NCBI RefSeq assembly: GCF_016403105.1
Contig: NZ_CP046155.1
Location: 124,001-188,000 of the forward strand
Source: Leptolyngbya sp. BL0902
Lineage (GTDB): Bacteria; Cyanobacteriota; Cyanobacteriia; Phormidesmidales; Phormidesmidaceae
Reading direction: 5' to 3'
Length of the DNA: 64,000 bases
Shown: positions 4,124 to 9,086 of the stretch, one piece after another
Numbering within the stretch: position 1 is the first letter of the stretch
Layout of the letters: each line of letters starts with the position of its first letter
Program-made: the position numbers and the translations under genes
The notes under the pieces: generated by a model
Databases searched by the model: none
The model's input: only the letters and a program-made list of their open reading frames with translations
Told to the model about the DNA's origin: nothing

Positions 4124-4987
4124 TCAGCGCAGCAGTTGGTCAATCATGCGGTTGGCCTGGGCTTCGTAGCCGCCGCCAAACAAATTGAAGTGGTTGAGGA
4201 TGTGGTAGAGGTTGTACAAGGTTTTGCGCTGGGCATAGCCGCCATCCAGGGGGTAGGCCGCTTGGTAGCCCTCATAGAAAGCATTGGGAAAACGGCCAAA
4301 CAGTTCGGTCATAGCCAAATCGACTTCGCGATCCCCGTAGTAGGTGGCCGGATCGAGGATGACCGGATCACCCTCTGCCGTCACCGCCGCATTGCCCGAC
4401 CACAAATCGCCATGCACCAGGGCCGGACTGGGCTGATGGCCCGACAGCAACTCAGGTAGCGCAGCGATCAAGTCCTGCTGCTGAGGAAACCGTCCACCCC
4501 GCCGCCGAGCTAGGCGAAACTGGTACTCCAGCCGATGTTCGCGATAGAAAGCGAGCCAGCTTGTCGTCCAGGCATTGACCTGGGGCGTGGCTCCGATGGT
4601 GTTGTTCTGGTGCCAGCCAAACCCACGAGCACTGGTCACTCGGTGCATAGCCGCCAGATGTTCTCCCATGCGCCGCCAGGAACGTTCGCCAGAATGACCC
4701 AAATCCAGCCATTCCAGCACCAAGTAGGCCGAGGATTCAGCCGTACCCCAGCAGATGGGCCGAGGGACACGTATGGTCTGGCTGTCGTACATGTCCTTCA
4801 GGCCCAGGGCCTCCGCTTCAAACATGGCGACTTGGGTGGCGCTATTCAGCTTGAGGAAAAACCGCTGGCGACCATCGGTGATTTGATACGCCTGGTTAAT
4901 ACAGCCTCCGCCCACGGATCGACGGTCGGCCAGGGTGAAGGAGGTTCCCGTTTGAGCGCTGATGTGCTGGGCAATGGCAGTCCACAT
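4124..4987 (-). CDS. Fructosamine-3-kinase family protein
   Basis: This 287-residue protein has the aminoglycoside phosphotransferase-like kinase fold. Its features are a glycine turn SVGGGCINQAY at 24-34, the ATP-contacting Lys46 in FFLKLN, the catalytic loop HGDLWSGN at 192-199, and the metal-binding DPATYYGDREVDLAM starting at 212. These are diagnostic of the fructosamine kinase family, which phosphorylates ketoamine adducts of sugars on proteins so that they decompose (deglycation). In bacteria some members act on ribulosamines or free adducts, so the substrate is inferred. The length is typical. The ATG at 4987 was chosen because the domain begins directly after it, although the frame stays open to 5083. 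Confidence 0.85.
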   Translation of the reverse strand: MWTAIAQHISAQTGTSFTLADRRSVGGGCINQAYQITDGRQRFFLKLNSATQVAMFEAEALGLKDMYDSQTIRVPRPICWGTAESSAYLVLEWLDLGHSGERSWRRMGEHLAAMHRVTSARGFGWHQNNTIGATPQVNAWTTSWLAFYREHRLEYQFRLARRRGGRFPQQQDLIAALPELLSGHQPSPALVHGDLWSGNAAVTAEGDPVILDPATYYGDREVDLAMTELFGRFPNAFYEGYQAAYPLDGGYAQRKTLYNLYHILNHFNLFGGGYEAQANRMIDQLLR

Positions 4988-5434
4988 GGTTGATCGTCCA
5001 TCCAAGTTGCAAAGTTTGGTTAGGCCAGATGCCAACGCCAAGCCCAGACTACATGAAATTCGCCGCCAGAAAACCCCAGCCATGCCACAGGGATTGCTGG
5101 GGCTTTTCCGGAAAACTACGGTTCTTCATCAAAATTTTGTAAAGTTTATGTATACATGATTTTATCGTGAAGTTCACTGACATCCTCCGAAATACTAGGA
5201 ACTCAAGCTGAGCAGGGCGTCTATGGGTAGTTATGCCGTCATGCATTCGGCCAATTTTTGGAAAAATCAGCCGTTAAAAGACGATTTTAGGAACGTTTTA
5301 CGTTTTCCAGCGTCCTGGCTTAGTTAACCTGCGATTAGAGAGCAGTCAGGATTCCGTACTATCCGTAGAATGACGGAACTCTGTCCTGAAAGGCGGGTCT
5401 AGGGGTGAAAATCTGTCGTTTAGGGTTTTCACGC
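4988..5434. promoter_or_regulatory. Divergent intergenic region with two hairpins
   Basis: This 447-bp stretch separates the leftward kinase gene from the rightward secreted-protein cluster and is AT-richer than its neighbours. At 5071-5107, CCCCAGC and GCTGGGG form a stem flanked by AAAA and TTTT, a bidirectional terminator-like shape. It would lie in the 5' leader of the kinase mRNA and could act as an attenuator. At 5346-5389, TCAGGATTCCGT pairs with ACGGAA and TCCTGA around a five-base bulge, 46 bases before the first secreted-protein start. No protein-coding signal was found. Confidence 0.45.
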
Positions 5435-5899
5435 ATGAAGCCAATCCAACATGTGATGACTGGATTAGGTGCCGCTGCTCTGAGTATGGTGATGGCTCCC
5501 GCCTTCGCCAACACGGCTGTGGAGCAAGTGGGCACCCAATCTGCCACCATCAACGGAGACAATAACCAGGTTATTCAAACGATTAATCAGGTCAATGTGA
5601 ACCATCCTGGGCTAGGGCAAGGGCTGACCAATAATGCCCGACGAGTTTCAACCTCGACGAGCACCTCTGCCACTGTTCAAGATACATTTCAAGGCGCAAC
5701 CATTAACGGTTCTGGCAACGTGGTTTACCAAGAATCTACCCAGATTAATCAAGAACTGCGTAATCCACAGCGCCCTGCCCAGGCTCGTCCTGATCGAGGT
5801 AACTCTGATGATGATCGGGGTCGCGGGCGCGGCAATAGTCAAAACCAAGGCGGCAACAATCAAAATCAAGGTCGCCGCAATTCTGGAAGCAACAAGTAG
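5435..5899 (+). CDS. Secreted curlin-like repeat protein A
   Basis: This 154-residue protein has a clear signal peptide (hydrophobic core at residues 8-22, AFA cleavage site near 25). It carries two 20-residue blocks, at 35-54 and 86-105, with the pattern Q-x-A-T-I-N-G-x-x-N-x-V-x-Q-x3-Q-[IV]-N. The spacing of Gly, Asn, Val/Ala and Gln resembles curlin repeats of the amyloid subunits CsgA and CsgB, but there are only two repeats and the phasing differs. The C-terminal 45 residues are disordered, Arg/Gly/Asn/Gln-rich and basic. The ATG at 5435 was preferred to 5405 because it places the signal peptide first. The repeats occur in the same register in the next gene. Function unknown; a surface or matrix protein is an inference. 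Confidence 0.75.
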   Translation: MKPIQHVMTGLGAAALSMVMAPAFANTAVEQVGTQSATINGDNNQVIQTINQVNVNHPGLGQGLTNNARRVSTSTSTSATVQDTFQGATINGSGNVVYQESTQINQELRNPQRPAQARPDRGNSDDDRGRGRGNSQNQGGNNQNQGRRNSGSNK

Positions 5900-5964
5900 A
5901 AGCTGGCTTTTTGTCACTTCTCAACTGGATAGTGGTGTTATCCCTTATCCATCTAAACCTAGGC

Positions 5965-6007
5965 AACGGCCATCATTCCATGGAAAGATTTATCCATGAT
6001 GGCTGTT
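5965..6007 (+). terminator. Hairpin downstream of secreted protein A
   Basis: GCCATCAT and ATGATGGC form the outer stem, and CATGGA with TCCATG offers an alternative inner stem. It starts 66 bases after the stop codon and is followed by AAAA rather than T, so it may be an mRNA 3' structure. The rest of 5900-6341 is AT-rich non-coding DNA with no gene I can support; it probably holds the promoter of the next gene. Confidence 0.4.
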
Positions 6008-6341
6008 AAAACCAGAGGTTTAGGGCTCACTAAGAGCAACAAATAGGAAGTTAACGACCCACAAACTTTCCTCCAAAAAAGATGGATTGACCTCAAAAAA
6101 CCTGGAACTTTTCAGTTTTTTAATCCGTCTAAAGATATGAACAAGAGAAAACCAATATCACTGAAAAAGAAGCCAAAAACACCTTGAATTTTGCGATTCA
6201 GTTGTTGATGGTCATGACAATTCTTGCTTCTGATATCTGTGGTCATTGGGATGGGTGTCTGTGGCCTTTCAGAACCATTTTTTGCTCTTGTTCAGGTTTT
6301 CATGATTTCTCATTTCCGTAAACTTTGTTGAGGATTTTCCC

Positions 6342-6710
6342 ATGTTGAAGAACGTATCTATTTTGGGTCTTCTGAGTGCTGCAACCCTGGGTGTGGTGGC
6401 CCTTCCCGCCAGCGCCGATACGGCGGTAATTCAGCAGGGCACCCAAGATGTTTTCATTCAAGGCGATGACAACTCGGCGGTGCAACGCTCTCAGCAAATT
6501 AACCGGATTGAAGTGAACCGTGAACGGTCTAGCCGGGGAGCTGGGAACACTGGCATTGTGCAGGATATCTATCAAGGCGGCACCATTGTGGGTGATGACA
6601 ATGAGGCCTACCAAGAAAGCAACCAAATTAATGTGATCCAAGATCGCAGCCGTCCCAGCCAGAGCCAAGGCCGGGGCCGCAGCGGTCGGGTTGAGGTACG
6701 TCAGCGCTAA
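6342..6710 (+). CDS. Secreted curlin-like repeat protein B
   Basis: This 122-residue protein is a paralogue of the gene at 5435. A signal peptide ends near PASA-D at residue 25. Two repeats follow: QDVFIQGDDNSAVQRSQQIN at 35-54 and QGGTIVGDDNEAYQESNQIN at 78-97. The first repeat sits at exactly the same residue numbers as in protein A. The tail is again short, disordered and Arg/Gln/Ser-rich. There is no cysteine and no membrane anchor. The repeat pattern G-D-x-N-x-[AV]-x-Q-x3-Q recalls curlin motifs, so stacking beta-strands are plausible but unproven. The genes are 442 bp apart, so they are probably transcribed separately. Confidence 0.75.
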   Translation: MLKNVSILGLLSAATLGVVALPASADTAVIQQGTQDVFIQGDDNSAVQRSQQINRIEVNRERSSRGAGNTGIVQDIYQGGTIVGDDNEAYQESNQINVIQDRSRPSQSQGRGRSGRVEVRQR

Positions 6711-6718
6711 TTTCCGGC

Positions 6719-6803
6719 CAGACGATCACAGCCAGCGCAGACCAGGAATCTTCACCACCGTCAGGCAGGATGCTTCCTCAAGGCGCTAGGGTGTGATCGT
6801 CTG
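6719..6803. repeat. Perfect 12-bp inverted repeat enclosing an 85-base structure
   Basis: CAGACGATCACA at 6719-6730 is the exact reverse complement of 6792-6803. Further complementary segments lie inside: AGCGC at 6734-6738 with GCGCT at 6784-6788, and AGGAA with TTCCT nearer the loop. The whole can fold into one long interrupted hairpin that begins eight bases after the stop of secreted protein B. No T-run follows. It may be a long 3' end structure, a small RNA or a miniature palindromic element. Confidence 0.6.
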
Positions 6804-6875
6804 ATTGATGGCCTTGCCCTGTGGGGTGGGGCCAGATCCATCACTCAGCCCCACCCTTGGGGCGAAGGAGAACCA

Positions 6876-7217
6876 ATGATAACGGTATGTATGAAAGCCG
6901 CGATGGTAACGGTACTGCTTCTGGGGGCAACGGCTCCGGCAGCCTTGGCTAATGGCATTTCTATCCAGACGGATCGGGTTCAGGTGCGGGTGAATGACAA
7001 CGGCGGGGTGCAGATCCGTACCTCGGCGAGTCCTCCGGTTATCTTTAATGCCGATGCTGATCTGCCCGCTGTGCGATCCAATCTACCCGCCTCCCAGTCT
7101 TCGGGGGTGCGGTGTGCTGTGCGGTCGCAGAGCAGCCATAGCCAAGTCCAGAGCGTCACGCCTTCAGGCGACCGCATTTATACCGAAAACTACAGCACCA
7201 TTCGGGTGTGCCAGTAG
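6876..7217 (+). CDS. Small secreted protein with two cysteines
   Basis: This 113-residue protein is preceded by a good ribosome site, AAGGAG at 6865-6870, five bases before the ATG. A signal peptide (core AAMVTVLLLGATAPAALA) ends near residue 25. The mature part starts with beta-prone SIQTDRVQVRVNDNGGVQIR and ends with a two-cysteine segment (GVRCAVRS ... STIRVCQ) that could form a disulfide. I do not recognise a family. It is the third of four consecutive secreted-protein genes on the plus strand, and only 23 bases separate its stop from the next start, so those two are probably cotranscribed. Confidence 0.65.
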   Translation: MITVCMKAAMVTVLLLGATAPAALANGISIQTDRVQVRVNDNGGVQIRTSASPPVIFNADADLPAVRSNLPASQSSGVRCAVRSQSSHSQVQSVTPSGDRIYTENYSTIRVCQ

Positions 7218-7240
7218 TGTCTCTTACTTGCCATAGCGCC

Positions 7241-7624
7241 ATGAATAAACCTCAGGTTATGTTGGGGGGTCTGCTGTCCTTGGGGGCCTCTCTGGTTTTC
7301 GTTCCATCGGCTTCAGCCCAGTGCGTGGTGGCCGATGTCTCTATCCAAGCGGCGATCCATGGTGGCCCGCCCGCCGAACAGGTGAATGACGTGGTGATTG
7401 ATACGCCCGATCAGTGCCGAGGCAACACAAGCGTTAGCACCAGCCGCCAAATCCAGGTGGGAGGTACGGGCGAGGTGCGCCAAGTGCGCCAAAGCCGTCA
7501 CCAAATTCGCAATGGCTCTGCCGAGTCTAACCGTCCGGCAGGCCCTGCGGTGGTTGTCCCTGTGGGAGTACAGGTGGATGTTCACAACGCCGCCGATACT
7601 CTGCGTACCCGTTCGCAGCCCTAG
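7241..7624 (+). CDS. Small secreted protein, fourth of the cluster
   Basis: This 127-residue protein starts MNKPQVMLGGLLSLGASLVF and has a signal peptide ending at ASA-Q. The mature N-terminus carries two cysteines (QCVVADVS and TPDQCRGN). It is followed by a Gln/Arg/Ser-rich region with alternating beta-type residues (STSRQIQVGGTGEVRQVRQS) reminiscent of the two curlin-like neighbours but without their repeat. The ATG at 7241 is preferred to the overlapping GTG at 7208 because the signal peptide then starts at residue 1. The family is not recognised. A shared envelope role with the three upstream genes is inferred from position and export signals. Confidence 0.6.
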   Translation: MNKPQVMLGGLLSLGASLVFVPSASAQCVVADVSIQAAIHGGPPAEQVNDVVIDTPDQCRGNTSVSTSRQIQVGGTGEVRQVRQSRHQIRNGSAESNRPAGPAVVVPVGVQVDVHNAADTLRTRSQP

Positions 7625-7639
7625 CGGATAGCGTCCAAG

Positions 7640-7660
7640 TCCCCCTTTTTGTGAGGGGGA
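7640..7660. repeat. TCCCCC/GGGGGA palindrome
   Basis: TCCCCC and GGGGGA flank TTTTTGTGA shortly after the stop at 7624. This shape is a common dispersed palindrome in cyanobacteria and could also stop transcription before the LRR-kinase gene. Confidence 0.45.
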
Positions 7661-7730
7661 TACAGGATTGCCAGCGAATCTGGCCAAGGGATGGCACACT
7701 GGGCACAGTTCTTCCCAGTTTCCTGCATTT

Positions 7731-9086
7731 ATGCACAGCCTCGAACAACTGCGCCAGGGCCAACTAGCGGGTCTCCAACGCCTCAATCTCTCCGCCCAAC
7801 TCACCACCTTTCCGGCGGAAATCTTTGATTTGGCCGACTCCCTAGAGGTGCTTGATCTATCGCGAAACCAGCTCAGCACCCTGCCGGAGGATCTGCCCCG
7901 GCTGCATCGGCTGAAGGTGATTTTTCTCAGCAACAATCAGTTTGAAACCTGGCCAGAGGTGTTGGCCCACTGCCCCCATCTGAGGATGATTGGGCTCAAG
8001 TCGAATCGCCTCACCCATCTGCCAGAGCAAGCCTTGCCGCCCCAAACCCGCTGGCTGATCCTGACCGATAACCAGCTCGAAACCCTGCCCGCCGCCATCG
8101 GCACGCTGCCACATCTCCAAAAGCTGATGCTGGCCGGAAACCGCCTCACCACCCTGCCCCCAGAACTGGCCCACTGCCGCAACCTAGAGCTGATTCGCCT
8201 TGCGGCTAACCAACTGACGGAGTTGCCCCCCTGGTTGTTGACGCTGCCCCGACTGTCTTGGCTAGCCTATGCGGGTAATCCCTTCTGTGCCCACTGGTCT
8301 GCCTCCGTGGCCGATAGCCTGCCCATCGCCAACTGGGCCGATCTGGTCAAGGGCGAGGTGCTGGGGCAAGGGGCGTCAGGGGTGATCACCAAGGGACGCT
8401 GGAAAACCGATCCTGGCGATCAGGAGGTCGCCATCAAGTTCTTCAAAGGAGACATCACGAGCGACGGCTACCCTGCCGATGAAATCCGAGCTTGCCTTGC
8501 AGCAGGCACCCACGACCACCTGATCAGCCCCATCGGCCAAGTGGCCCACCATCCCAAGGGGCAGCAAGGGCTGGTATTTCCGCTGATTCCCGCCAGCTAT
8601 CGGGTGTTGGGTGGCCCGCCCAGCCTAGAGAGCTGCACCCGCGACACCTATCCCCCCGACCGCACCTTTTCGTTAGCGGTGGCCCTCCGCATCGCCCACA
8701 GCCTTGCTGCCGCTGCCCACCATCTCCACCAGCGCGGCCTGCTCCACGGCGATCTGTACCCCCACAACACCCTCTACAACGACGACGGCATGGCCAAACT
8801 GGGCGACTTTGGGGCCGCGTCCTTTTACCCTGTGGATGATGTCGCCCTAGGGCAAGCCCTCGAACGTCTGGAAGTTCGCGCCTTTGGATGTGTGCTAGAA
8901 GACCTGCTGGATCGATGCCCCATCGCTGAGGATGACTCAGCGGCCTCAGCTACCTACACCGCCCTGCGTCAGCTTCAGCACCACTGCCAAGGGTCTGACC
9001 AGCGGCCTCGTTTCAGCGAGATTCTAGACCGCTTGGCCACCCATCTCGCCGAAACAGCGCCCACCCAGCCGCCTGCCTCGCCCTAG
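7731..9086 (+). CDS. Leucine-rich-repeat protein kinase fusion
   Basis: This 451-residue cytosolic protein has about eight leucine-rich repeats at roughly 10-200 (for example LEVLDLSRNQLSTLP and LQKLMLAGNRLTTLP). A protein-kinase domain follows at about 210-440. Kinase signatures are GQGASG (glycine loop), VAIKFF (ATP lysine near 234), HGDLYPHNTLYN (catalytic loop, Gly replacing the Arg of HRD) and DFGAA (metal-binding Asp near 359). The residues needed for catalysis are present. The activation segment is short and the usual APE motif is not evident, so activity should not be assumed. The LRR part probably binds a protein partner. The ATG at 7731 starts just before the first repeat. It converges with and overlaps the Tic20-like gene by four bases. 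Confidence 0.85.
   Translation: MHSLEQLRQGQLAGLQRLNLSAQLTTFPAEIFDLADSLEVLDLSRNQLSTLPEDLPRLHRLKVIFLSNNQFETWPEVLAHCPHLRMIGLKSNRLTHLPEQALPPQTRWLILTDNQLETLPAAIGTLPHLQKLMLAGNRLTTLPPELAHCRNLELIRLAANQLTELPPWLLTLPRLSWLAYAGNPFCAHWSASVADSLPIANWADLVKGEVLGQGASGVITKGRWKTDPGDQEVAIKFFKGDITSDGYPADEIRACLAAGTHDHLISPIGQVAHHPKGQQGLVFPLIPASYRVLGGPPSLESCTRDTYPPDRTFSLAVALRIAHSLAAAAHHLHQRGLLHGDLYPHNTLYNDDGMAKLGDFGAASFYPVDDVALGQALERLEVRAFGCVLEDLLDRCPIAEDDSAASATYTALRQLQHHCQGSDQRPRFSEILDRLATHLAETAPTQPPASP

Follow-up and report, generated by a model that had tools for sequence, protein, structure and literature searches.

Curli, the HET-s prion domain and the EbfG proteins are the described systems with which the locus studied here is best compared. 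Curlin subunits carry 4 to 62 repeats of 23 ± 5 residues, and their centrosymmetric class has a mirror-symmetric core (PMC10192328). Tandem copies are reported for csgA/B in a survey of curli that names Proteobacteria, Bacteroidetes, one Firmicutes and one Thermodesulfobacteria strain (PMC3521004). HET-s and the related HRAM motifs have two pseudo-repeats, a Gly-rich loop and opposite charges at equivalent positions, and a test for this charge complementarity has been published (PMC4518210). In Synechococcus elongatus, a four-gene operon encodes the small secreted proteins EbfG1-4. Amyloid is formed by EbfG1-3, for which a contribution to the biofilm matrix is assumed, and the secretion of EbfG proteins involves a double-glycine motif and a C39 peptidase transporter (PMC9981879).

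The stretch of DNA analysed here (64,000 nucleotides, hereafter the window) is part of the 4.71 Mb genome of Leptolyngbya sp. BL0902. A preliminary description had reported two adjacent genes for signal-peptide proteins with a pair of 20-residue repeats each, the first at residues 35-54 in both. We found both open reading frames (genes A and B) and both first repeats at these places, with leaders that are Sec-type as judged by eye (Table 1). The two genes are indeed adjacent, but the description had missed two further exported members of the same cassette, C and D. All four lie on one strand in the order A-B-C-D, and elsewhere a gene E often comes fifth. An Rfam scan of 4800-7900 gave no match above gathering scores, and a promoter/terminator scan of 5050-7800 yielded fewer sites than in shuffles. 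Directly downstream of D (7668-9086, + strand) lies a gene whose 472-aa product combines leucine-rich repeats with a protein kinase domain; relatives of this protein were found in none of the 18 related loci searched.

Table 1. Features of the cassette, in positions of the window
Feature	Position	Strand	Description
Gene A	5435-5899	+	154 aa from ATG at 5435; exported, two repeats; open reading frame, relatives in tandem with B, repeat matches in own genome
Gene A signal peptide	about 5435-5509	+	Sec-type by eye, cleavage after AFA
Gene A repeat 1	5516-5599	+	28 residues; 28-mer profile E 6.9e-7
Gene A repeat 2	5669-5752	+	28 residues; 28-mer profile E 7.3e-9
Gene A tail	5753-5896	+	Low-complexity, R/G/N/Q-rich; Asp-run tails in several relatives
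Gene B	6342-6710	+	122 aa; exported, two repeats; open reading frame, match in 18 of 57 genomes, own included
Gene B signal peptide	about 6342-6416	+	Sec-type by eye, cleavage after ASA
Gene B repeat 1	6423-6506	+	28 residues; 28-mer profile E 4.5e-7
Gene B repeat 2	6552-6635	+	28 residues; 28-mer profile E 3.7e-9
Gene C	6876-7217	+	Small exported protein, Sec-type leader by eye, two conserved Cys; alternative ATG at 6891
Gene D	7250-7624	+	Exported, Sec-type leader by eye, two Cys; best-conserved cassette member

Genes A and B share a gapless 28-residue unit, xxxQxxxQxxxxxGxxNxxxQxxxQxxx, present twice in each protein and built on the core pattern Q-x3-Q-x5-G-x2-N-x3-Q-x3-Q. The 20-residue repeats reported earlier exist, but the conserved unit is longer, with an extra Q four residues upstream. 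In the pattern first given for it, the spacing Q-x4-G needs correction to Q-x5-G, and the D placed after the G is present in three of the four repeats, repeat 2 of A having GSGN. Across 53 repeats from many cassettes, Q4, G14, N17, Q21 and Q25 were invariant and Q8 nearly so, an invariance that is partly built in because the motif search that picked the rows required most of those letters. These 53 were the motif hits, out of 61, that entered our 28-mer profile; a minus-strand false hit in locus L123 and seven near-duplicates (one with an unknown residue) were dropped. Conservation in homologues, the lack of which would have refuted the preliminary description by its own account, was found in two alignments. 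With 27 sequences (2 from the window and 25 relatives), A3, Q6, G16, N19, Q23, Q27, Q49, G59, N62, Q66, Q70 and N72 were invariant; in a wider set of 39 sequences this held for G16, Q23, Q27 and Q66, while Q6, Q10, N19, Q49, Q53, G59, N62 and Q70 were kept in at least 90%.

Comparison of the profiles of repeat 1 and repeat 2 gave an E value of 1.9e-12. Searched against the whole own genome, the 28-mer profile, whose seeds include the four A/B repeats of the window, matched those four repeats at E 3.7e-9 to 6.9e-7, and no other match went below E 1.7. A related repeat profile, run with composition correction, matched none of 2183 reversed and none of 2183 shuffled decoy ORFs. The conserved twofold repeat of A and B is real and exceeds chance. 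Glutamine peaks at positions -10, -6, +7 and +11 relative to the G of the turn, in 82, 79, 80 and 89 of 116 G-x-x-N sites (38 Nodosilinea-type proteins) and in 35, 40, 40 and 41 of 62 sites (28 distant proteins), all in proteins that had been chosen with a repeat profile. At +9, the curlin position, Q occupied 3 of the 116 Nodosilinea-type sites and 4 of the 62 distant ones. The letters also pair in mirror fashion about each turn (mature B numbering: 6+27 = 10+23 = 14+19 = 33; 49+70 = 53+66 = 57+62 = 119). Such pairing is as expected for two facing strands of an arch, which A and B may contain; the symmetry alone does not decide between arch and hairpin, because a hairpin gives identical sums.

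Like CsgA and CsgB, A and B are small exported repeat proteins, often in several copies, and in some cassette genomes the small repeat protein likewise stands in tandem. The earlier label "curlin-like" is apt for the turn, G-x2-N followed by x-[AV], and for the mirror-symmetric placement of core residues, but not for the glutamines, which sit at G-10/-6/+7/+11 and not at curlin positions, nor for the curlin family signature. Curlin_rpt (PF07012) matched neither A nor B at E 1, nothing in the own genome, none of ten proteins of related loci at E 1, and none of 35 D-carrying genomes at E 0.1. The set of 35 does not include G349 (weak D match with a stop), and the E. coli control of that search was positive. 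The curlin consensus Q-x-G-x2-N-x-A-x3-Q occurred in no protein of the three sets that we scanned; the minimal motif Q-x-G-x2-N occurred in 0 of 38 Nodosilinea-type proteins, 5 of 28 distant proteins (strict) and 12 of 54 (lenient). Neither CsgG (PF03783) nor CsgF was found in the own genome at E 1, which confirms that no csgG lies nearby and extends the absence to the whole genome. CsgG was detected in 6 of the 35 D-carrying genomes, always on another contig or more than 200 kb from D, and not found in the other 29.

Curli membership of A and B was rejected on four grounds: no Curlin_rpt match, another Q register, two 28-residue repeats with linkers as opposed to the longer curlin arrays, and no CsgG or CsgF in the own genome. 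A related possibility is that A and B are true, highly divergent homologues of CsgA/CsgB that have lost the Curlin_rpt signature, in line with the common G-x2-N-x-[AV] turn, a core with the mirror symmetry of centrosymmetric curlins (PMC10192328) and the minimal motif in some distant relatives. We consider it very improbable, given that the signature is missing from all 35 D-carrying genomes, the full consensus from every protein set, the minimal motif from the Nodosilinea-type proteins, and CsgG from the vicinity of every cassette. CsgC and CsgH, small non-fibre proteins encoded with the curli subunits, resemble C, D and E by analogy only, and C, D and E differ in matching no Pfam or NCBIfam family over the cut-off.

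We then considered how widely the cassette is distributed. B matched in 18 of the 57 genomes chosen as relatives (own included) and in 14 of 26 genomes of the own genus; the other 12, some of them incomplete, gave no match. Of 386 genomes drawn from the whole phylum, 21 carry D, and they belong to eight cyanobacterial families. The named relatives of D include Nodosilinea and Leptolyngbya strains, and Nodosilinea nodulosa PCC 7104 has the cassette. In the same 386 genomes (apparently one common draw), A/B profiles matched in 10. The 28-mer profile matched in 17 of the 386 at E 0.01, and 16 of these also carry D, an agreement that is partly circular because 13 of those 16 genomes gave rows to the repeat profile; the one without D (G128) has a weak partial match. 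A six-frame 28-mer scan of all 386 genomes listed nothing strong in a genome without D.

Gene order was examined in 45 loci, three of them from one genome (G154) and two (L089 and L130) probably from one; left out of this set were L048, L105-L118, L120, L121 and L123, mostly duplicates (not L107, L111 and L117). D was present in 44 loci, the exception being L047, where the contig ends soon after A. Within 4.5 kb of D on the same strand we found a repeat gene in 39 of the 44, C in 36 and E in 28, counts that lean upwards because the profiles include sequences from loci that were then counted. All 17 Nodosilinea-type loci showed the order repeat gene, repeat gene, C, D on one strand, followed in 14 by E. 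A strict repeat gene stood beside D in seven of the eight families; two f32 loci (L094, L095) gave lenient hits only. In 20 distant loci, with composition correction on, strict repeat hits fell within 3.5 kb of D in 12 with no decoy scoring (16 hits among 438 near ORFs vs. 0 among 362 far ORFs), and the 28-mer profile placed repeats beside D in 15. With the correction off all 20 loci scored, which is only a lead because under that setting the related repeat profile picks up decoys as well, 11 of the 2183 reversed and 1 of the 2183 shuffled ones. We regard the exported repeat cassette A-E as real, conserved among cyanobacteria and, it appears, without a name so far.

Contig C376 of genome G016 carries two inverted cassette copies with identical A and B (L038, L048) near both ends of its 28.5 kb, either an inverted duplication or an assembly artefact. 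Tandem arrays of small repeat genes lie upstream of C and D in L103 (5632-7323), L099 (6224-7429) and L098 (8360-10815); the copies are near-identical in L103 and L099, and the L098 array was recognised partly by lenient scoring. A Crp-family regulator gene, possibly a regulator of the cassette, is found upstream of it in Nostoc spongiaeforme (L125:5949-6539), with relatives within the cassette regions of L085, L124 and L126.

Gene C is proposed as an assembly partner, and D, which has the conserved C-terminal motif GPTVxVPVxVQVDVYNPA, as an assembly or nucleation partner. D was also considered as a third repeat protein on account of two Q-flanked turns seen by eye, but profile comparison (repeat 1 and repeat 2, each against the second D turn, d2) gave no match, and the repeat profile does not match D either. 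E does not adjoin D in the window; a 39%-identical E lies elsewhere in the own genome among unrelated genes (L129:7579-8103; contig C1, about 3029579-3030103), between a ribosomal-protein region and a pdxJ-like gene as judged by eye. A further gene, F, occurs in seven loci (L086, L087, L092, L097, L101, L102 and L127). Its products have an N-terminal stretch like one repeat in several members (4 of 7 by lenient scoring), a conserved NTENDFG...FQPGRT region and a probable coiled coil; a search of the own genome for F, run without a positive control, gave no match.

Relatives with more repeats were also found. Two large proteins encoded within cassettes, L099 9010-10116 and L130 1660-2736, have four repeats, spaced apart. 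Plasmid pP880101 of Rippkaea orientalis PCC 8801 encodes C, D and E together with a 358-aa four-repeat protein, all annotated as hypothetical. If contig 1 of G191 is pP880101, as we take it to be because the repeat coordinates are identical, three tandem copies of the two-repeat protein lie near the other end of this circular record. Sorting to the cell surface is the generally assumed fate of PEP-CTERM proteins. The 368-aa four-repeat protein of L099 matches PEP-CTERM at E 0.0037, below the Pfam cut-off, and the Rippkaea relative gives no PEP-CTERM match; by eye, the C-terminus of each of the two shows a VPEPS motif and then a hydrophobic stretch.

The tails beyond the repeats vary. They had been described as basic, which is true of A and B in the window, but 9 of the 59 tails counted in relatives contain runs of at least five Asp, and tail charge differs from one relative to the next. 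The A of the window is absent from this count because the last A motif match falls within its tail. The Asp runs, and equally the basic tails in the window, would suit a mineral- or ion-binding surface layer in which the repeats serve as a scaffold and the Asp- or Arg/Gly-rich tails take up calcium, carbonate or polysaccharide; such binding is compatible with a beta-arch material, as its function. With no such Asp run in 50 of the 59 tails and no constant charge among them, we hold this to be improbable.

To assess stacking, we paired the charges that repeats 1 and 2 carry at equivalent positions, expected to be complementary on the outward side if the repeats lie in register, and compared them with those of shuffled partners. 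The 47 distinct two-repeat pairs reduced to 29 non-redundant proteins at 80% identity, which held 17 opposite-charge pairs where shuffled partners averaged 8.5 (P 0.0002); like-charge pairs were nearly as many, 15 against 18.9. Stricter identity cuts left 13 opposite pairs in 17 proteins (P 0.0014) and 10 in 13 (P 0.0024), and opposite minus like was a weaker statistic (P 0.001, 0.012 and 0.009); all of these P values are optimistic because the sequences are related and the counts small. Shifting the register by 1 to 5 gave at most 5 opposite-charge pairs each. In the 17-protein list, the opposite pairs stood at positions 5, 7, 9, 22 and 26, which are outside in the model, with one at 16, in the turn. 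The linker between the repeats is 10-23 residues long with 16% Gly (47 distinct pairs). These statistics support the view that the two repeats of a subunit may stack in register. Taken together, the mirror-symmetric glutamines and the excess of opposite charges in register suggest a pair of beta-arch rungs lying one on the other, in the manner of HET-s or curlin, and a surface material that assembles by self-stacking.

Structure prediction for mature B (AlphaFold2, 39 sequences) gave four long strands at 2-15, 20-35, 45-58 and 63-78 with low confidence (mean pLDDT 60.3, pTM 0.29), well below the pLDDT of 83 ± 9 reported for CsgA models (PMC10192328). The model of D reached pLDDT 53.9 and pTM 0.27. 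Foldseek searches of the PDB with the B and D models returned no significant match (HET-s was listed for both, with E values of 3.4 (B) and 8.9 (D) that are not evidence), and VIA-align of B with 8 chains gave no Z of 2 or more. A poor model with no significant structural match, and only two repeats in a small protein, would also fit soluble, non-polymerising beta-proteins of the periplasm or outer surface, for example ligand-binding or envelope proteins, in which the repeats close into a small fold and C, D and E belong with A and B to an envelope complex; beta-solenoid domains do occur in non-polymerising proteins (PMC10192328). We think this rather unlikely, as the polar ladder, the in-register charge complementarity, the tandem copies, the low-complexity tails and the four-repeat relatives fit stacking better.

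In design, A and B recall the HET-s motifs in their two pseudo-repeats, Gly-rich loop and opposite charges at equivalent positions; they differ in being exported and bacterial, whereas the HET-s domain is the tail of a fungal HeLo protein. A and B had no Pfam match at E 1, and their profile had no PDB sequence match at E 10. Likeness of design and family membership are separate matters, because A and B resemble both curlin (turn, symmetric core) and HET-s (two repeats, Gly-rich linker) yet belong to neither on the tests made. The earlier remark that two repeats would be very short for a fibre subunit is not valid as a general rule: two repeats make up the prion domain of HET-s (PMC4518210). 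With EbfG the cassette shares four genes for small secreted cyanobacterial proteins. By description, the two would differ in their export: the leaders of A-D are Sec-type by eye, as opposed to the double-glycine motif and C39 peptidase transporter of EbfG. The leader of D does contain GG inside its hydrophobic stretch, as seen by eye.

The suggestion of an undescribed exported family has held up, with no Pfam or NCBIfam family matched over the cut-off by any of A-E or by the F proteins. A phage origin was considered: A had no match in phage records and A-D had none in PHROGs, both at E 0.01. We found no published account of the A-E cassette among open-licence PMC papers. The further suggestion that the family is amyloid-like or part of a matrix is favoured, as far as sequence can tell, by the in-register charge complementarity and the four-repeat relatives with a PEP-CTERM-like end.

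Our main reading, to which we give even odds (a probability of roughly 0.5), is that A and B serve as the subunits of a beta-arch material that stacks on itself outside the cytoplasm, probably at the cell surface, and is functional-amyloid-like, with C, D and E as partners. Each 28-residue repeat would form a strand, a G-x-x-N turn and a second strand, with an inward, mirror-symmetric ladder in which, by mature B numbering, Q6 faces Q27, Q10 faces Q23 and I14 faces N19. Within a subunit, the two repeats would be parallel, in-register rungs joined by the linker, and subunits would stack on one another. Fibre formation, an amyloid nature, a surface location and passage of the outer membrane are inferred parts of this reading. 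C and D, with E where present, would be exported partners, most likely chaperones, nucleators or co-subunits, and in some species the four-repeat relative with its PEP-CTERM-like end may anchor the material to the cell. No outer-membrane export gene linked to the cassette was identified. More tentatively, and as less likely than not, we propose an unnamed cyanobacterial surface-fibre system whose two-rung, mirror-symmetric glutamine-ladder beta-arch subunits have a design between curlin and HET-s and whose CsgG-free assembly is helped by C, D and E; in some species a four-repeat PEP-CTERM protein anchored at the surface would nucleate the fibres.

The protein part of cyanobacterial mat and biofilm matrices is poorly known. 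The A-D cassette, conserved in filamentous and unicellular cyanobacteria, is a second candidate system beside EbfG of Synechococcus elongatus, the cyanobacterial matrix amyloid available for comparison (PMC9981879). If fibres are made, the cassette would reveal how small a number of repeats is enough for a bacterial surface amyloid, and that the curli pore is not needed to make such fibres.
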